Position numbers and translations under genes: made by a program. Under the pieces are notes generated by a model. That model was given only the letters and a program-made list of their open reading frames with translations, did no database searches and was not told the origin of the DNA. A stretch of DNA of 64,000 nucleotides from Calditrichia bacterium (GTDB taxonomy: Bacteria > Calditrichota > Calditrichia > RBG-13-44-9 > J075). Of this stretch, positions 10,199 through 18,545 are shown one piece after another; position 1 is the stretch's first letter; every line of letters begins with the position of its first letter. Location: positions 1-64,000 of the forward strand of contig JANQQU010000073.1 of the NCBI GenBank assembly GCA_028284905.1. Reading direction: 5' to 3'.

Positions 10199-10987
10199 TT
10201 ATTCCAGTCCCATACAGACAACCCGACAGAAAGCAGCTTCGCCGCCTTTAAACAGCCAGGGGAAAACACCGAGTGTTAAACGTTTGTTTACGATATCTTT
10301 ATGACCAATATCGCCACCGAGATTTTCCACGTGCATACAGTCATGCGGAAATAGTTGATTGTGGGTCATCTGATAATCACTGTCCGGAAAAAGATCGTCC
10401 ATATTTTCCTTACCAAACTTCTCCTCGCAAAGTGCGCGCACCCGGTCGCAATGTCCGTGCATGCCTTTGCCAAGGAAACGGCCAATCGGCAAATCCATCG
10501 GATGATCGGTAGAAATACAATCGACACCCCAGATGTGAATTTTCATATCAAGCAGCCAGGTTACCATATCGCGATGGGCGCCGGGATGAAGATGGATGTA
10601 ACGTTCTTCATCAGGCGTATCACCAAACTGAGCAAAGCGGCCCCAGCCGGTATATAAAAGAAGGATATCTCCTTTTTTTACTTCCACCCGCTTCTCGATC
10701 ATTTCCGGCGTGTACAGGTCAAGGTCGGTCAGTTCATCACTTAAATCGACAATCACACCGGAGCCGTAAAGCCAATCCAGGGGGATTTGATCAATTGTTT
10801 TACCGCCGGTAACAAAATGGCGGGGCGCGTCCAGGTGGGTGCCCATGTGGTTGGAGGTCTGAATATACTGGGCGTTAACACCATGCTCAGCTTTACGTTT
10901 AATATACTTTACTTCAAAAGGCGGATAGTAGGGCCAAAAGGGAGCGTCCTGATTCAATGGCTGCGATAGATCATAAATTTTCTTCAT
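10199..10987 (-). CDS. Cyclase-family metal hydrolase (kynurenine formamidase-like)
   Basis: A 262-residue member of the cyclase family (PF04199), with the metal-binding signature SNHMGTHLDAPRHF near residues 44-57 and WGVDCISTDHP further on. Family members include kynurenine formamidase and isatin hydrolase, Zn/Mn enzymes that hydrolyse formamides or cyclic amides. The start follows AGGAGGAAAC. It is the first gene of the minus-strand catabolic series and divergent from the aromatic amino acid operon, about 170 nt from the leader peptide. An aromatic amide substrate is therefore possible but not shown. Confidence 0.8.
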   Translation of the reverse strand: MKKIYDLSQPLNQDAPFWPYYPPFEVKYIKRKAEHGVNAQYIQTSNHMGTHLDAPRHFVTGGKTIDQIPLDWLYGSGVIVDLSDELTDLDLYTPEMIEKRVEVKKGDILLLYTGWGRFAQFGDTPDEERYIHLHPGAHRDMVTWLLDMKIHIWGVDCISTDHPMDLPIGRFLGKGMHGHCDRVRALCEEKFGKENMDDLFPDSDYQMTHNQLFPHDCMHVENLGGDIGHKDIVNKRLTLGVFPWLFKGGEAAFCRVVCMGLE

Positions 10988-11093
10988 GTTTCCTCCTGGG
11001 TTTGATGTCGAATGGATTAGCCTCAACCATTGTAAGGAAAATGCGATTTGTTGTCAATCATTTGTGACTTTTTTATTTACGGGCACTTTTTGT

Positions 11094-11122
11094 TTGACAT
11101 TGAAAAATTAATTCTGTATGTT
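11094..11122 (+). promoter_or_regulatory. Promoter of the aromatic amino acid operon
   Basis: A consensus TTGACA (11094-11099) is followed after 17 nt by TATGTT (11117-11122), a fair sigma-70 -10 element. Transcription would start near 11129, giving about 27 nt before the leader-peptide ATG at 11156. Confidence 0.6.
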
Positions 11123-11155
11123 TTGCCCCAACAGAATAAAAAAGGAATCATCTGG

Positions 11156-11233
11156 ATGTTAAATATTTTCGCTGGCTTTTACTTTTACTTTTATTTTTGG
11201 TTCATAAAACCGGAGCCAGCGCGGGTGAACTAA
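11156..11233 (+). CDS. Aromatic-rich leader peptide of the operon attenuator
   Basis: A 25-codon open frame preceded by AAAAAAGGAA about 9 nt upstream. Its peptide contains ten aromatic residues, nine of them consecutive (FYFYFYFWF, codons 8-16): six Phe, three Tyr, one Trp in total. This composition, its place between promoter and terminator, and the structural genes downstream identify it as a regulatory leader peptide rather than a functional protein. Ribosome stalling at the run would sense charged tRNA for all three aromatic amino acids. The first stem-forming segment lies in codons 5-8 and the second in codons 18-22, so ribosome position decides which hairpin forms. Confidence 0.85.
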   Translation: MLNIFAGFYFYFYFWFIKPEPARVN

Positions 11234-11298
11234 ACCTGAAGATAGAATTACTACAGAATATAAACGCATAAGGCTCCGAGGACATCGGGGCCTTTTTT
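11170..11298 (+). promoter_or_regulatory. Ribosome-mediated transcription attenuator with alternative 1:2, 2:3 and 3:4 hairpins
   Basis: Segment 1 (11170-11177, CGCTGGCT) pairs perfectly with segment 2 (11214-11221, AGCCAGCG). The front of segment 2 (11211-11217, CGGAGCC) pairs perfectly with segment 3 (11272-11278, GGCTCCG). Segment 3 is also the 5' arm of the terminator whose 3' arm is 11285-11294. A ribosome stalled in the Phe/Tyr run masks segment 1 and frees segment 2 to form the antiterminator; a ribosome that reaches the stop masks segment 2 and lets the terminator form. This is the architecture of the enterobacterial trp and phe leaders. Confidence 0.85.
11270..11298 (+). terminator. 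Attenuator terminator before pheA
   Basis: A 10-bp stem (11270-11279 with 11285-11294, one G-U pair) with a five-base loop, directly followed by T residues to 11298. It lies 37 nt past the leader-peptide stop and 45 nt before the pheA start, so it must be regulated rather than a gene-end terminator. Confidence 0.85.
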
Positions 11299-11342
11299 GT
11301 TTTAAGGGGCAAGCGAATTTTTCGCAGATACAGGAGAAAACA

Positions 11343-12194
11343 ATGAAAATTGCCATTCAGGGCGGCCAGGCATCTTTCCACCACACGGCGACACTGCAAT
11401 ATTTTGGTGATGAAGAAGATATTACCCTGGTAGAATGCCAAACGTTTCGGGAGCTGTGTAAAACACTGACCAATAAAGGCGCCGACCTGGCCGTTATGGC
11501 GATTGAAAACACACTGGTTGGTAGTATTCTTCCCAATTACTCCCTGCTGAAAGAATATCCGATTCATATTATTGGAGAAACCTATTTACACATCGAGCAG
11601 AATCTCATCGCCCTGCCCGGGCAGCATATCAGCGATATCCGTTTTGTTCGTTCCCATCCGATGGCATTGCTCCAGTGCAGCGATTTTCTGGAGGATCATC
11701 CACATATGTTACCGGAAGAAACTGTCGATACCGCGATAAGTGCCCGGGAAATCGCCGAGCGGCAGTCCAGCGGCGTTGCAGCGATTGCCAGTCGACTGGC
11801 AGCGAAGCTCTACGATCTGGAGGTGCTCAAAGGGGGCATCGAAAATCTCCACCACAACTACACCCGCTTTTTGGTTTTATCCGCACAACCCAACATCAAT
11901 AGTTTAGATGCCAATAAGGCATCTCTTAATTTTCATGTCAGTCACGAAGTCGGTGCGCTTTCCCAGGCATTGAACATTTTCGTTGAGCACAAACTGAATC
12001 TCTCCCTAATCCAGTCCATCGCATTACCGATGCATCCACATAAATATGCGTTCCATGTCGACCTCGAGTGGCATCAACGGGAGCTTTTTGATACCGCTAT
12101 TAGTAAGATAAAAGAGCTGTCCCGAGAATTACATATTCTCGGTATCTACAAAAAAGGAGAAAGGCCTTATGATAACTACAGCCAATCGGCTTAA
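11343..12194 (+). CDS. pheA: Prephenate dehydratase
   Basis: A 283-residue monofunctional prephenate dehydratase: prephenate to phenylpyruvate, water and CO2 in phenylalanine synthesis. The catalytic domain (1-180) shows AIQGGQASFHHTA, AVMAIENTLVGS and the essential NYTRF near residue 175. An ACT domain follows (about 195-280), with the GAL region (VGALSQALNIF) present but the ESRP motif that binds feedback Phe replaced by QSIA, so feedback inhibition may be altered. It lacks a mutase domain; chorismate mutase is supplied by the fusion at 13883. It starts after CAGGAGAAAAC, is first in the operon behind the attenuator, and overlaps the next gene by 26 nt. Confidence 0.92.
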   Translation: MKIAIQGGQASFHHTATLQYFGDEEDITLVECQTFRELCKTLTNKGADLAVMAIENTLVGSILPNYSLLKEYPIHIIGETYLHIEQNLIALPGQHISDIRFVRSHPMALLQCSDFLEDHPHMLPEETVDTAISAREIAERQSSGVAAIASRLAAKLYDLEVLKGGIENLHHNYTRFLVLSAQPNINSLDANKASLNFHVSHEVGALSQALNIFVEHKLNLSLIQSIALPMHPHKYAFHVDLEWHQRELFDTAISKIKELSRELHILGIYKKGERPYDNYSQSA

Positions 12195-13353
12195 CCGAAT
12201 CGAAGAGTATTACTTTTCCCACAAGCTGCGGGAAGTACGGCGCTTGGCGGCCAGCGGCCGGGATATCATCAATCTGGGTATTGGTAATCCTGATCTTCCC
12301 CCTTCGAAAAATACCCTGGCACAGTTGGCCGATACGGCACAACAAGCGAGCAGCCATGGTTATCAGCCTTATCGCGGAGTAGCGGCATTGCGGGAAGCCA
12401 TGGCGGGTTGGTATCAGCGAACATATGGCGTCTCGCTCGATGAACAAGATGAACTGCTGCCGTTAATGGGATCAAAAGAAGGCATTTTTCATATTTCGAT
12501 GGCCTTTCTCGACGAAGGCGACCATGTGCTGGTGCCGGACCCTGGTTATCCCGGCTATGCCGGTGCAGCCCGTTTAGCCGGCGCGAAAATGATCAGTTAT
12601 AATTTGACTGAAGCTAACGACTGGTTGCCGGATCTTGAGGCGCTGGGACGGCAAGATCTCTCCCGGGTAAAAATTATGTGGCTGAACTATCCGCATATGC
12701 CCACCGGGGCACTGGCTAATCGCAGCTTCTTTGAGCAATTGGTTGATTTTGGCCGCAAACATCATATTCTTCTGTGCCATGATAATCCTTACAGCCAGAT
12801 TCTTAATCCGGACAAGCCGCTAAGCTTGTTATCAATTCCGGGTGCCAAGACTTGTTGTATTGAGTTAAATTCCCTGAGCAAATCTCACAATATGGCCGGA
12901 TGGCGCGTGGGAATGATGGCGGGGAACAAACAATTTATTGACGCAGCATTAACGGTGAAAAGTAATCTGGATTCCGGTATGTTTCTCGGCACTCAACACG
13001 CTGCTGTGGCCGCTTTGCAAAACTCTGCCGAATGGCACCAATCGCAAAACGAAATTTACCGTGAACGCCGGGAATTGGTCTATCGCCTCCTTGATAGCCT
13101 GGCATTTAATTATTCGAAAGAGAATACCGCCGGCATGTTTGTTTGGGCCCGCGTTCCGGAATCCATAGAAAATGTGGAAATATTTCTCGATGAGATTCTC
13201 TACGGGGCAGATGTTTTTATTACCCCGGGAAAAGTATTTGGGAAAAATGGCGAACGCTATGTCCGGATATCCGTCTGCCAGCCAAAAGAAATCATCCAAA
13301 AAGCAGCAGAGCGAATTGAAGCTTTTACCAATAAACGGAAAATAGCAGTATAA
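12169..13353 (+). CDS. Class I/II aminotransferase, probably aromatic or prephenate aminotransferase
   Basis: A 394-residue PLP-dependent fold-type I aminotransferase. Visible: NLGIGNPDLPPS near the N-terminus, the PLP contact region DPGYPGYAGAARLAG, the Schiff-base Lys in LNSLSKSHNMAGWRVGM, and the late Arg in RYVRIS. It resembles the LL-diaminopimelate/aspartate aminotransferase group, but its position between pheA and DAHP synthase in a translationally overlapping operon suggests transamination of phenylpyruvate, hydroxyphenylpyruvate or prephenate. AAAGGAGAAAGG precedes the ATG inside the pheA coding end. An inserted element begins immediately after its stop. Confidence 0.88.
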   Translation: MITTANRLNRIEEYYFSHKLREVRRLAASGRDIINLGIGNPDLPPSKNTLAQLADTAQQASSHGYQPYRGVAALREAMAGWYQRTYGVSLDEQDELLPLMGSKEGIFHISMAFLDEGDHVLVPDPGYPGYAGAARLAGAKMISYNLTEANDWLPDLEALGRQDLSRVKIMWLNYPHMPTGALANRSFFEQLVDFGRKHHILLCHDNPYSQILNPDKPLSLLSIPGAKTCCIELNSLSKSHNMAGWRVGMMAGNKQFIDAALTVKSNLDSGMFLGTQHAAVAALQNSAEWHQSQNEIYRERRELVYRLLDSLAFNYSKENTAGMFVWARVPESIENVEIFLDEILYGADVFITPGKVFGKNGERYVRISVCQPKEIIQKAAERIEAFTNKRKIAV

Positions 13354-13859
13354 AACTTAAGTTCAAAGTTTAGAGTTCAGAGTTTATTTGATCTCGATTG
13401 GGGGAACTCTTTAACAGTATAAAAATTGGGGGAAAAATGACGATTCGTAAATTTGAGGACATTCAAGCCTGGCAATTAGCCAGGGGAATGACAAAAAGAA
13501 TTTATGCTTTAACAAAGCAATCAAAATTTTCAAGAGATTTCGGTTTGAAAGACCAAATCAGAAGAGCAGCCGGTTCATCAATGCATAATATCGCCGAAGG
13601 CTTTGATGCTGGAAGCAACAAGGAGTTTATAAGATTCCTAAGATATGCAAAAAGATCATGCACAGAAGTACAAAGTGAACTATATATCGCACTAGATGAA
13701 ACTTACATAACAAATGAAGAATTTTTAGCTATATATAAAAACGCAGCAGAAACCAAAGCTGCAATACACGGCTTTATAAGCTACCTAAAATCATATGAAC
13801 AAAATAAAAAATAAACACCCTCAACTCTGAACTCTGAACTCTGAACTCTGAACTTATAA
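13354..13859 (+). mobile_element. Inserted element with inverted GTTCAGA tandem arms and a four-helix-bundle gene
   Basis: The left arm (13354-13386) holds degenerate GTTCAGA heptads; the right arm (13823-13855) holds four exact AACTCTG units plus AACTT in inverse orientation. They enclose a gene that is much more AT-rich than its operon neighbours. The unit sits directly between the aminotransferase stop and the DAHP synthase ribosome-binding site, so it looks inserted into the operon without breaking a gene. No transposase and no clear target duplication are visible. Confidence 0.6.
13437..13814 (+). CDS. Four-helix bundle protein (23S rRNA intervening-sequence family)
   Basis: A 125-residue all-helical protein of the TIGR02436/S23 family, the type encoded in 23S rRNA intervening sequences and related to the Avd accessory protein of diversity-generating retroelements. 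Family marks: FEDIQAWQLA at the N-terminus, IRRAAGSSMHNIAEGF near 40-56, and FLRYAKRSCTEVQSEL. The start at 13437 is preceded by GGGGGAAAAA. No enzymatic function is established for the family. The gene has low GC and many AAA/AAT/ATA codons, unlike the flanking aro genes, and is framed by inverted heptad repeats, which indicates recent acquisition. It is probably carried cargo or the maintenance factor of the element rather than part of aromatic synthesis. Confidence 0.85.
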   Translation: MTIRKFEDIQAWQLARGMTKRIYALTKQSKFSRDFGLKDQIRRAAGSSMHNIAEGFDAGSNKEFIRFLRYAKRSCTEVQSELYIALDETYITNEEFLAIYKNAAETKAAIHGFISYLKSYEQNKK

Positions 13860-13882: not shown

Positions 13883-15016
13883 ATGAGCAAGCATCCGCAA
13901 CTCGATATCGTGCCGATGGACGAGTGGCTTCCCCAATCCGAGCAACCGCTGGTAATCGCCGGCCCCTGTAGCGCGGAAAGTGAAGAGCAGGTCATGCAAA
14001 CCGCCAGAGAATTAAAGAAAGTCTCGCAAGTAAGTGTCTTCCGTGCAGGTATCTGGAAGCCCCGCACCCGGCCGGGCGGCTTTAGCGGTATGGGCGTCGA
14101 GGCCTTGAGCTGGATGAAGCGTGTTAAGGAAGAAACTGGGCTATTGACCACTATTGAAGTTGCAAATGCCAATCATGTATATGAGGCGCTTAAACATGGT
14201 ATAGATATTCTCTGGATTGGCGCCCGTACCTCGGCGAATCCCTTTTCCGTGCAGGAAATTGCCGATGCGCTAAAAGGTGCTGATATTCCGGTATTTGTTA
14301 AAAACCCGATCAGCCCGGATCTGCAGTTATGGGTTGGCGCAATTGAGCGGATTAATCAGGCTGGCATTCGCCGCGTTGGTGCTGTTCATCGTGGATTTTC
14401 CACCCACCAGAAAACGCCTTTCCGCAATGTTCCGAAGTGGGAACTGGTTATTGAGCTAAAACGCTTGCTTCCGGATATTCCCTTAATTTGCGATCCCAGT
14501 CATATTGCCGGATCCCGCTCGCTAATCCCTGAGCTTTGCCAGAAAGCGGTCGATATGGCGATGAACGGACTGATGGTCGAAAGCCATATTTCTCCGGATG
14601 CAGCGCTGAGCGACGCGGCGCAGCAAGTTCAGCCGACCGCGCTGGGAAAAATCCTTGAAAACATTGAATATCGTGTGCCCCAGGGCGATGGCGAACCAAA
14701 AGAGTTCCTGGAAATCCTTCGTGAAGAGATTGACATTACCGACAATCAAATCCTCGAAGCTTTTGCCCGACGCAGCGAAATTATCGAAAAAATCGCACTT
14801 TACAAGAAGAGTCACAAAATGACCATTCTCCAGGTGGGACGATGGCAACAGTTATTAGAGAACAGACTGGAAGAAGCGAGAAAAATCGGACTGGAAGACG
14901 ATTTTGTGAAAGCAATTTACCAGCTCGTTCACGATCGTTCCATTCGCCTGCAGTCTCAGGTAATGAATAAGGCTGAAAAGAAAGACAAAGACGGGAAAAT
15001 GAAGGATGTCAGTTAA
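13883..15016 (+). CDS. Bifunctional DAHP synthase / chorismate mutase
   Basis: A 377-residue fusion. Residues 1-265 are a class I-beta type 3-deoxy-7-phosphoheptulonate synthase (PEP plus erythrose-4-phosphate, the first shikimate step), with VIAGPCSAESEEQ, FRAGIWKPRTRPGGFSGMG, VKNPISPDL and CDPSHIAGSR. Residues about 275-362 are an AroQ chorismate mutase (REEIDITDNQILEAFARR, YKKSH, VHDRSIRLQSQ), making prephenate and possibly giving prephenate-sensitive feedback. This domain order is common in Bacteroidetes-type bacteria. It starts after an AAAGG site 30 nt past the inserted element and overlaps aroA by 11 nt. Confidence 0.92.
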   Translation: MSKHPQLDIVPMDEWLPQSEQPLVIAGPCSAESEEQVMQTARELKKVSQVSVFRAGIWKPRTRPGGFSGMGVEALSWMKRVKEETGLLTTIEVANANHVYEALKHGIDILWIGARTSANPFSVQEIADALKGADIPVFVKNPISPDLQLWVGAIERINQAGIRRVGAVHRGFSTHQKTPFRNVPKWELVIELKRLLPDIPLICDPSHIAGSRSLIPELCQKAVDMAMNGLMVESHISPDAALSDAAQQVQPTALGKILENIEYRVPQGDGEPKEFLEILREEIDITDNQILEAFARRSEIIEKIALYKKSHKMTILQVGRWQQLLENRLEEARKIGLEDDFVKAIYQLVHDRSIRLQSQVMNKAEKKDKDGKMKDVS

Positions 15017-16268
15017 AGTCTATCGAATTGATGCAGCGGACAACCGGGAACAGTCGGTGTCCCTGCCATCATCAAAAAGTGTCAGTCATCGTATATGCAT
15101 CCTTGGTGGATTGAACACCGGCGAAACGCATATCAATGAATTGCTGGATTCGGAAGATATTGATTTAACCCTGCAGGCCCTGGAAAATATGGGGATGGGC
15201 GCCCGGCGAAATAACGGCACCCTGATATGTCAATCTCCGATTGGTCATGCCCGCGCGGATAAATCCTATCTCGGCAATTCCGGTTCCTCTGCACGCTTTC
15301 TGATGCCCTTGCCGGCTTTCACCGATCGGACAATGTGTTACTATGGCGATGAGCGATTGCATCAACGCCCATTTTCCGAGCTTTTTGATGCACTGTCGGC
15401 AGTCGGCATTAAGATCGATAGTGACCAGGGAAGCTTGCCTGCTAACGTTCATCCCGGTCCGGTTAAAGGGGGGCAGATTCAACTGGAAAAGCTGCCTTCA
15501 TCACAGATAATCTCCGGTCTGATGATGGCAGCACTCTGGATGGAAAGGGATCTCACCATTCGTCTGGAAGAAAACACCCCTTCCCTCCCCTACATTGAAA
15601 TGACTTACAACTTGATGCGGCATCTGAATTTGCAGGTGGAGTATATTGGGAATGAGATGTGGGTAAAAGCGCAGCGCCCGAACTATGAGTGGCATTTTAC
15701 AGTCGAGAAAGACCTTTCCGCCTCTTCTTATTGGGTCGCATATGCATTAATCACCGGGCAGAAAGTCACCCTTAGCAATGTTACTTTACCGTCGTTACAG
15801 GGCGATGAGAAAATTTTCCGCATTGCCGAAGATGCTGGCGCCACCGTGACATTATTTCCCGATCGGGTCGAGATTGAAGGTGCTATTCGCAAAGGCTTTT
15901 CCGCCAATTGCCTGCATACGCCGGACCTGGTGCCCGCACTAGCCGTCATCGGCATGTTTGCACCGGAAGCAGTGCATCTGCACGGTGTCGAGAACCTCCG
16001 TTTCAAGGAATGCGATCGCATTGCCGCGATACAGGAAAACATTGCGACTTTGGGCGGCAAAACCGAATTTGATGGGGACACATTGACGATTCTGCCCCAG
16101 AAAAAATACCGCGGTGGATTAATGCAGTCCTATAATGACCATCGCATTGCCATGAGCTTTGCGATTGCCGGCAGTCGAATTCCCGATGTGCTCATCGAAA
16201 ATCCCGATTGCGTGAATAAATCCTATCCGGCTTTTTGGACAGATTTTTCCGCCTGGAAACAAAACTAG
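15006..16268 (+). CDS. aroA: 5-enolpyruvylshikimate-3-phosphate synthase
   Basis: A 420-residue EPSP synthase joining shikimate-3-phosphate and PEP. Family motifs are LPSSKSVSHRI near the N-terminus, LGNSGSSARFL (PEP site), YLGN..., and toward the end RFKECDRI and YNDHRIAMSFAI. The start overlaps the end of the DAHP synthase gene by 11 nt, arguing for translational coupling. The following 237-nt gap before aroC contains a dispersed palindromic repeat, the only large spacer in the operon apart from the four-helix-bundle insertion. Confidence 0.93.
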   Translation: MSVKVYRIDAADNREQSVSLPSSKSVSHRICILGGLNTGETHINELLDSEDIDLTLQALENMGMGARRNNGTLICQSPIGHARADKSYLGNSGSSARFLMPLPAFTDRTMCYYGDERLHQRPFSELFDALSAVGIKIDSDQGSLPANVHPGPVKGGQIQLEKLPSSQIISGLMMAALWMERDLTIRLEENTPSLPYIEMTYNLMRHLNLQVEYIGNEMWVKAQRPNYEWHFTVEKDLSASSYWVAYALITGQKVTLSNVTLPSLQGDEKIFRIAEDAGATVTLFPDRVEIEGAIRKGFSANCLHTPDLVPALAVIGMFAPEAVHLHGVENLRFKECDRIAAIQENIATLGGKTEFDGDTLTILPQKKYRGGLMQSYNDHRIAMSFAIAGSRIPDVLIENPDCVNKSYPAFWTDFSAWKQN

Positions 16269-16328: not shown

Positions 16329-16427
16329 TGTCATTGCGAGGAATCTTTTGCCGAAGCAATCTCTAGTATGAGTATTTACAGTGAGATCGCTTCGTCGCTT
16401 CACTCCTCGCGATGACAGCGAAAAGAA
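16329..16427. repeat. Dispersed ~99-bp palindromic repeat, copy 1
   Basis: The ends TGTCATTGCGAG and CTCGCGATGACA are near-perfect inverse copies, with inner inverted parts (GCCGAAGCAATCTC and GAGATCGCTTCGTC). The same element occurs at 46702, 52480, 55443 and 60570. It lies between aroA and aroC inside the operon and would fold into a long hairpin in the mRNA. Repeats with these ends are widespread in bacterial genomes. Confidence 0.85.
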
Positions 16428-16505: not shown

Positions 16506-17798
16506 ATGGCAGGCAGTAAGATTGGCAATCTCTACTCGATAATGACTTTTGGAGAAAGCCATGGCCCGTTTATTGGCGTGGTTATTGATGGTGTAAAGCC
16601 GGGCATTGAAATTGACATTGATGAAATTCAGCATGAGATGAATCGCCGTCGTCCCGGTCAAAGCAAAGTAACAACCCCACGCAACGAGAAAGACCGCGCA
16701 CAGATTGTATCCGGCGTTTTCGAAGGTAAAACAACCGGCACACCGATTTGCGTCATCATTAAGAATGAAGACCAGCGCAGCAAAGATTATTCGAAAATAA
16801 AGGACATTTTTCGTCCCGGGCATGCCTCCTACACCTACCTGAAAAAATACGGCATCTTCGATTATCGTGGTGGCGGCCGCGCCTCCGGCCGGGAGACCGC
16901 TACGCGGGTAGCAGCCGGTGCCATCGCCAAACAGGTCTTGCGGCAACATGGGATTGAGTTTAGAGGATTTGTTCGTCAAATCGGCTCGCTGGTTGCCGAA
17001 ACTGTTGACTATGATAGTATTGAAGAAAATCCAGTCCGCTGCTGCGATCCACAGATGGCAAAGGAAATGGAAACTTATATCCGAAAAATTGCCGAAGAAG
17101 GCGACTCGGTCGGCGGTATTGTTGAACTCCATATTAAGGGCTTACCATCAGGACTTGGCGATCCGGTTTTTGAAAAAATCGATGCGGAATTATCCCACGG
17201 TTTAATGTCGATCGGAGCGGTAAAAGGGATTGAATTCGGCAGCGGTTTTGCCTCGGCCGAAATGCTTGCCAGTGAAAACAATGATGTTTTCCATCAAACG
17301 GAGAGTGGGGATATTTTACCGAAGACCAATCATGCCGGCGGCCTGCTTGGTGGCATAACGACCGGCCAGGACCTCGTTTTACGTATCGCGGTTAAACCGC
17401 CTTCTTCGATCAACAAAGAGCAATTGACTGTCGACGCTTTTGGGAATGATGTCTCTCTATCGATCGGTGGCAGACATGATCCTTGTATTTGCCCCCGGGT
17501 GGTACCGGTTGCGGAAGCAATGGCTGCTGTCGTAATCCTTGATTTACTCCTGGTTCAACAGGCGATTGCCGATAGCAGAGGAGAAAGCCCGACTGATATC
17601 GATAAGCGTGAATTAATTGATAACCAGCTTTTACTTCTACTAAATGAACGGTTGCGCCTCTCCGGCCCCTCTTCTGACGTGGACTTCCAAAAGTTGCAGG
17701 AGTTAGCAGCACAACTTGAACTTCCCAAGGACCTGGTTGTGGAGATATGGGAAGCGATTGTTAAAAAGAGTGCTGTTCAGGAAGCAGTGAATGAGTGA
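16506..17798 (+). CDS. aroC: Chorismate synthase with a chorismate-mutase-like C-terminal tail
   Basis: A 430-residue protein. Residues 1-357 are an ordinary chorismate synthase (FMNH2-dependent; EPSP to chorismate) with [34 protein letters not shown] and [18 protein letters not shown]. Residues 358-430 (17577-17795) are an extension whose sequence ([15 protein letters not shown], then [20 protein letters not shown], then KKSAVQEA) tracks the first and last helices of an AroQ chorismate mutase. Compared with the intact mutase at 13883 it lacks about 20 residues that carry the K39/D48 active-site region, so it is probably not catalytic. It starts after AAGGAG. tyrA begins 3 nt after its stop. 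Confidence 0.92.
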
Positions 17799-17801
17799 CC
17801 T

Positions 17802-18545
17802 ATGGAGAGTGAATTTACTTTTTCAATAATCGGCACCGGACGGTTTGGCAGCTTCTGGGGCACACAACTCAACCGTTTTTTTCCAGTGTTATGTTTTGAC
17901 GAAAATGCAGGCAGAAACCGGGAAGATATAAGCTGCGGGCAATGGGCAACGCTGGAAGAATGTCTGGCCTGTGATTATATCTTTTTGACGATTCCAATTC
18001 GTCGTATCGAAGATTTTTTAAAAATGAATGCCCAACAATTTCGCCCGGGCAGTGTGGTCATCGATTGTGCGTCGGTAAAAATGTGCGTGGTAGAATGGTT
18101 TCATCAATATCTGCCGCAATCGGTAAATTTTGCCGCCAGTCATCCGCTTTTTGGCCCGGATTCGGCGAGGTACAGTCTGAAGAATCATGTTATTACCTTG
18201 CAACCGGGCAGACTCCCCTACGTTCGCTATAAAGTATTGGTAGATCTTTTCAGCCGGGAAATGGGATTGCGCGTACTGAACATCTCCGCGGAAGAACATG
18301 ATCGTATGATGGCTTATAATCTAAGCCTGATCCATCATCTCGGGAGAACCTTCCACCATATGCAGATTTCCCGCTTACCGTTAATTATGGCCAACCTCGA
18401 GCGAATGAACCACATCTCGCGCATTGCCGCCAATGACACCGAAGAACTTTTCCAGGATTTCTATCGCTTTAATCCATTCGCTGAAAAAATCCGGGATGAT
18501 TTCCTGGAAAACTTTAGTGCGGTAACGGACCGCTTCCTGCGCTAA
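17802..18545 (+). CDS. tyrA: Prephenate dehydrogenase
   Basis: A 247-residue TyrA-type dehydrogenase converting prephenate (or arogenate) to the tyrosine precursor. It has the NAD(P)-binding start IGTGRFGSFWG, the catalytic-region ASHPLFGPDS, and EEHDRMMAYNLSLIHHLGR. It is shorter than most TyrA proteins (about 280 residues or more) but keeps both nucleotide-binding and helical domains and has no mutase or ACT domain. It starts 3 nt after the aroC stop and closes the operon. No terminator was recognised in the 168-nt spacer that follows. Confidence 0.88.
   Translation: MESEFTFSIIGTGRFGSFWGTQLNRFFPVLCFDENAGRNREDISCGQWATLEECLACDYIFLTIPIRRIEDFLKMNAQQFRPGSVVIDCASVKMCVVEWFHQYLPQSVNFAASHPLFGPDSARYSLKNHVITLQPGRLPYVRYKVLVDLFSREMGLRVLNISAEEHDRMMAYNLSLIHHLGRTFHHMQISRLPLIMANLERMNHISRIAANDTEELFQDFYRFNPFAEKIRDDFLENFSAVTDRFLR

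Follow-up and report, generated by a model that had tools for sequence, protein, structure and literature searches.

How an operon for both phenylalanine and tyrosine synthesis could be controlled by one short leader is the question raised by the region upstream of pheA in the DNA analyzed here, a stretch of 64,000 nucleotides from a Calditrichia bacterium that we refer to as the window. A first-pass annotation had proposed a ribosome-mediated attenuator at this position, and the promoter, the 25-codon leader, the run of nine aromatic codons, and the three alternative pairings which it described were all recovered where it had placed them (Table 1). Judged from its sequence, the element is very probably a leader-peptide transcription attenuator of the classical type, which senses tRNA-Phe and tRNA-Tyr in their charged form. 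This reading is strongly supported by the combination of a leader ORF with a Shine-Dalgarno (SD) sequence, a run of codons for the end products, a terminator, a mutually exclusive and covarying antiterminator, and an arrangement of the pairing arms that is compatible with control by ribosome stalling.

Table 1. Features of the pheA leader and of the genes downstream of it in the window.
Feature	Position	Strand	Remarks
Sigma-70-like promoter, TTGACA-N17-TATGTT	11094..11122	+	10/12 matches; same spacing and place in 6/9 loci
SD-like sequence of leader ORF, AAAAGGA	11140..11146	+	9 nt 5′ of ATG at 11156
Leader peptide ORF, MLNIFAGFYFYFYFWFIKPEPARVN*	11156..11233	+	25 codons plus stop (11231-11233)
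Segment 1, CGCTGGCT	11170..11177	+	Exact reverse complement of 11214-11221; putative anti-antiterminator
Control codons, FYFYFYFWF	11177..11203	+	Longest F/Y/W run of the window
Segment 2 (putative antiterminator), CGGAGCC	11211..11217	+	Exact reverse complement of 11272-11278
Partner of segment 1	11214..11221	+	Overlaps segment 2
Segment 3, terminator 5′ arm	11270..11279	+	Antiterminator partner is 11272-11278
Segment 4, terminator 3′ arm	11285..11294	+	Followed by T run to about 11303
pheA, prephenate dehydratase	11343..12194	+	PF00800, 188.9 bits
Class I/II aminotransferase, probable aromatic aminotransferase	12169..13353	+	PF00155; 3′ of pheA in most near relatives
Four-helix-bundle gene, 23S rRNA IVP-like	13398-13814		PF05635
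DAHP synthase-chorismate mutase fusion (DAHPS-CM)	13883..15016	+	PF00793 and PF01817
aroA, EPSP synthase	15006..16268	+	TIGR01356, 344 bits
aroC, chorismate synthase	16506..17798	+	TIGR00033; single copy in genome
tyrA, prephenate dehydrogenase	17802..18545	+	PF02153

No other run of nine consecutive F/Y/W codons occurs in the six frames of the 64-kb window, and when the window was shuffled 150 times with its dinucleotide composition kept, the longest run obtained was 6. The leader RNA folded better than 200 of 200 shuffled sequences (z = −3.2), and the antiterminator region (11204-11284) folded better than 199 of 200 (z = −3.3). The terminator stem (11270-11279/11285-11294) comprises 10 pairs, one of them G-T, and is followed by a T run. 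The gene 5′ of the element (10199-10990) lies on the opposite strand and is divergent, so that this terminator does not mark the end of a transcript from upstream. The promoter of the window is marginal when taken alone, its score being reached by 5% of base shuffles; a TTGACA-N17-TATNNT sequence was present directly 5′ of the leader in six of nine loci (the window and eight near relatives). A Bacteroidota-type promoter (TTTG-N20-TANNTTTG) was also considered for the window and was dropped, as TTGACA-N17 fits and recurs in the relatives.

If the short ORF were incidental, the terminator might be governed by a riboswitch, a T-box, or a protein. An Rfam scan of the entire window, in which riboswitch, T-box, and leader families were included, gave no match at or above the gathering score. 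Moreover, the parts conserved in relatives are the aromatic codons, the short distance from these to segment 2, and the terminator, whereas the remaining RNA is variable. We consider such a control very improbable in view of these results.

The genes downstream of the element agree in part with the earlier description of an entire aromatic operon: those from pheA to tyrA are present, but aroB, aroD/aroQ, aroE, and aroK are absent from the operon genes, and with a 238-bp gap 5′ of aroC, co-transcription as far as tyrA is only putative. A convincing plus-strand terminator between pheA and tyrA was not found. In the host genome (8.55 Mb in 93 contigs), the DAHP synthase of the operon is the only one found, the other PF00793 match being a KDO8P synthase, and a search for a type II DAHP synthase was negative. 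Two intervening sequences were observed within the gene cluster. The PF05635 gene (13398-13814) sits between the aminotransferase and DAHPS-CM genes, has AGTTCAGAGTT-like repeats in inverted orientation on either side, and was not detected in related operons. The gap between aroA and aroC contains at 16330-16420 a palindromic repeat-like sequence (GTCATTGCGAGG...CCTCGCGATGACA) that resembles a dispersed repeat.

The anatomy of the element and its comparative conservation lead us to infer the following course of events, from use of the promoter and translation of the leader to ribosome stalling, termination, and the effect of each amino acid. Transcription would start just 3′ of the promoter at 11094-11122, and a ribosome following RNA polymerase would translate the 25-codon leader. 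If either Phe or Tyr is scarce, this ribosome would stall within 11177-11203, mainly at the first codons, and cover segment 1, upon which segment 2 (11211-11217) would pair with 11272-11278 and block the terminator, and the pheA-aminotransferase-DAHPS/CM-aroA-(aroC-tyrA) genes would be transcribed. When both Phe and Tyr are ample, the ribosome would proceed to the stop codon (11231-11233) and cover segment 2, the terminator (11270-11294) would form, and transcription would stop 5′ of pheA. In the case of an untranslated leader, segment 1 would pair with 11214-11221, leading to termination by default. The leading edge of a ribosome lies about 10 nt beyond the A-site codon. From this geometry, a ribosome stalled early in the run is predicted to cover segment 1 while leaving segment 2 free, and one that has reached the stop codon is predicted to cover segment 2.

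To place the element in a wider context, we compared 81 pheA loci, namely the window and 80 loci from GTDB contigs belonging to Calditrichota, KSB1, Bacteroidota, an Ignavibacteriaceae genome, a Thermochlorobacteriaceae genome, and some genomes labeled Zixiibacteriota; PheA relatives were also fetched from the phylum. A leader with an aromatic (Phe/Tyr) run followed by an intrinsic terminator was present at 70 of the 81 loci, with 82 such units altogether. Leader peptides of near relatives are, for example, MTHFAPCYFYFFIYFFNALRSLKQGVL (L040), MICQITTIRFSYFYFYFFAPNYRGIRRCVAA (L049), MLSNTHFRFFFFYFFGSEPGS (L041), and MQIIKPQSSFYFSFFFFGPRSGARRL (L050), and a Phe/Tyr-run leader was also present at the Flavobacteriaceae loci L092, L108, and L116. 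In a PheA tree, the window sequence grouped with Calditrichota, KSB1, and Zixiibacteriota-labeled sequences in a clade with support values of 100/98, which under midpoint rooting, the only rooting used, lay amid Bacteroidota. Other Calditrichota families (C. abyssi type, outgroup) have a distant PheA.

The pairing between segment 2 and the terminator 5′ arm was evaluated in 66 non-redundant units by taking the best pairing of the segment following the run with the arm of its own terminator and permuting the terminator arms among units. The mean energy was −14.2 kcal/mol for the own pairing and −10.8 kcal/mol (SD 0.31) for permuted arms, and none of 5,000 permutations was as good. Across the family, segment 2 starts a median of 11 nt (interquartile range 9 to 13) past the final aromatic codon in the run and is mostly located no more than about 20 nt from the stop codon; in the window it begins 7 nt beyond the run (11203 to 11211). 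The two arms change jointly in near relatives, being CGGAGCC/GGCTCCG in the window and CGGGGC/GCCCCG in L046, L049, and L050. In the window, a U of segment 3 pairs with an A of segment 2 and can still form a G-U pair with segment 4. Together with the distribution of leader and terminator, these comparisons strongly support the proposal of a ribosome-mediated attenuator preceding a pheA-led aromatic operon outside the Proteobacteria.

The third of the proposed pairings fared differently. Pairing of segment 1 with segment 2 (11170-11177/11214-11221) is strong in the window (−16.7 kcal/mol versus −7.1 kcal/mol in shuffles) but was not above chance in the close relatives L040, L041, L043, L046, L049, and L050. 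It was therefore rejected as a general feature of the family and seems, from the sequences compared, to be a lineage-specific addition. Since these relatives do not share the segment 1 pairing, termination without translation may not apply to them.

Eleven of the 81 loci lacked the unit upstream of pheA (L042, L044, L045, L047, L048, L051, L052, L054, L058, L097, and L102). In L042 and L044, which belong to the same family, the terminator is kept and the leader is degenerate, most control codons having been lost; the operons of these two loci have the order pheA-AT-aroA-aroC, with no DAHPS-CM gene nearby. The upstream region of L048 and L097 is cut by the contig end, and L051 has a terminator and an aromatic-containing reading frame without an ATG. 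No unit was found upstream of pheA in L045, L054, L058, and L102. In the case of L047 and L052, which belong to the same order, the genes are arranged as DAHPS-aroA-aroC-tyrA-pheA, and the leaders MKSLKNTFYYYGYYYYFGGWCSDSQ and MKTNVNKIYYFSYYFYQRGYSINLP, together with a terminator for each, are located 5′ of the DAHPS gene and not of pheA. The leader is thus at the head of the operon in these two loci, which links the element to the control of the operon and not to pheA as such.

Tandem copies were found in 12 Bacteroidota loci (L055, L056, L062, L063, L070, L074, L076, L077, L078, L107, L112, and L118), where two aromatic leaders, both followed by a terminator of their own, are arranged one after the other. 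Between the first terminator and the start codon of the second leader there are 6 to 59 nt, which leaves little space for a second promoter.

The first-pass annotation had assumed that Phe, Tyr, and Trp are all sensed. The part concerning Phe and Tyr was supported, as codons for both amino acids occur in all 82 leaders (376 Phe and 265 Tyr). The same is not true for Trp, which is present in 20 of the 82 leaders and accounts for 21 of 1,741 residues, an ordinary protein frequency without enrichment. In favor of an additional sensing of Trp, the run of the window leader has a single Trp codon, its eighth, several Bacteroidota leaders have a W close to the end of the run, and Trp synthesis depends on this operon, since its DAHP synthase and chorismate synthase are the only ones found. 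However, no Trp was found in the run of the near Calditrichota and KSB1 pheA leaders, the single Trp of the L047 DAHPS leader lies outside the run, and a ribosome stalled at the W codon would, judging from the geometry, expose most of segment 1. Furthermore, trpE of the host is preceded by a leader of its own, MLTYNLLTNFWRFWWWHSAIGEGGISASVYS (FWRFWWW), with a terminator. Given a Trp codon that near relatives lack and a separate Trp-rich leader at trpE, sensing of Phe plus Tyr is the reading supported by these sequences and sensing of Trp is not; we regard the three-amino-acid version as quite unlikely.

Tyr codons need not mean that Tyr is sensed, because the aroR leader of C. glutamicum, with the sequence Phe-Tyr-Phe, responds to Phe and not to Tyr according to the account of aroR in PMC11802643. 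By analogy, the present attenuator might in practice sense Phe alone, with the Tyr codons being tolerated and seldom limiting, and the excess of Phe over Tyr codons in the 82 leaders would fit such a behavior. We nevertheless consider this unlikely, as Tyr codons are found in every leader at a level far above that in proteins, F-Y exchanges are common while the aromatic run is retained, a leader of the same order is dominated by Tyr (FYYYGYYYYF in L047), and both Phe and Tyr are products of the operon.

Among 21 close leader pairs, the changes at aromatic positions comprised 11 F-Y exchanges and two Y-N exchanges, and 24 F/Y changes were synonymous. The F-Y exchanges and synonymous changes are as expected if charged tRNA and not the peptide is read. 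This bears on a further explanation, according to which the nascent aromatic peptide acts like TnaC or SecM and halts the ribosome, independently of a shortage of charged tRNA. The leader peptides are indeed short and hydrophobic, but their sequence, length, and F/Y order differ widely in relatives and the aromatic content alone is conserved, so that we give peptide arrest very little credence.

Other leaders of this type were observed in the host and its relatives. W-run leaders with terminators precede trpE across the order (L120 [G000:C26:4409], L132, L134, L135, and L136), and those of the relatives contain WWW or WWWW. H-run leaders were found before hisG in the host genome and in the same order. 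At the locus L123 (G000:C25), two His leaders in tandem, MIQMNAHIHHYHAHSNQTERWAE and MRTLHRHHHIHHHFPPG, both of which have a terminator, are located within about 400 bp 5′ of hisG, and a tRNA-His(GTG) gene lies between them and hisG. A search of the genome with this tRNA revealed no second copy of tRNA-His(GTG). If the gene is co-transcribed, the sensed tRNA-His would be made under the control of its own switch. In relatives, a single His leader or none was found at hisG, and no tRNA is present there.

Returning to attenuation by charged tRNA-Phe and tRNA-Tyr, we lean, with some reserve, toward a widespread attenuator family without an Rfam model in Calditrichota, KSB1, Bacteroidota, Ignavibacteriota, and Chlorobi-like bacteria, which would act as a Phe/Tyr OR gate by means of one mixed run and in some lineages would be duplicated in series, giving two leader-peptide checkpoints per transcript. 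One mixed run would then watch two end products simultaneously. The sequences compared suggest that leader-peptide attenuation is a main control of aromatic amino acid synthesis in several further phyla. The family would be testable in culturable Chitinophaga, Flavobacteriaceae, and Bacteroidales and would lead to a new RNA family model and to the annotation of small ORFs in numerous genomes.

With respect to known systems, the element resembles in its organization the E. coli pheL attenuator, which likewise has a leader with Phe codons and mutually exclusive antiterminator and terminator structures before a prephenate dehydratase gene. Unlike in E. coli, Phe and Tyr codons alternate here, the operon additionally includes DAHPS/CM, aroA, aroC, and tyrA, and PheA is not fused to chorismate mutase. 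The trp and his attenuators follow the same segment logic, and W- and H-run versions precede trpE and hisG in the host genome itself, but these attenuators have runs for a single amino acid and serve one branch each. In the enterobacterial ilvGMEDA and thrABC leaders, one leader senses several end products of a branched pathway, although the amino acids and genes are different. In light of such leaders, the statement that known leaders respond to a single amino acid and serve a single branch overstated the contrast.

The aroR-aroF system of C. glutamicum also speaks against that statement, since a Phe-Tyr-Phe leader precedes a gene for the common-pathway DAHP synthase outside the Proteobacteria, as described for aroR in PMC11802643, citing Neshat et al. 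2014; it differs by having three aromatic codons instead of nine and by belonging to another phylum and operon. Most descriptions of leader-peptide attenuation concern Proteobacteria and Actinobacteria; in a survey of 2010, leader peptides were known only from Proteobacteria and Actinobacteria before Firmicutes were added (PMC2965389). Our literature search found no report on ribosome-mediated attenuation in Bacteroidetes, and in a paper about Bacteroidota his genes, attenuation is brought up in the general introduction alone (PMC8305728). A transcriptome study of Flavobacterium psychrophilum from 2021 described conserved 5′ elements without an Rfam match before pheA and hisG in Flavobacteriaceae, along with indications of leader-peptide attenuation upstream of operons for amino acids (PMC9723704). 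The main text of that study gives neither a leader sequence nor a mechanism for the pheA element, which is probably the same as the one described here. Mixed leaders and leaders of the common pathway thus have precedents; less expected are how widely the element is distributed, that its run is mixed, and that it occurs in tandem.
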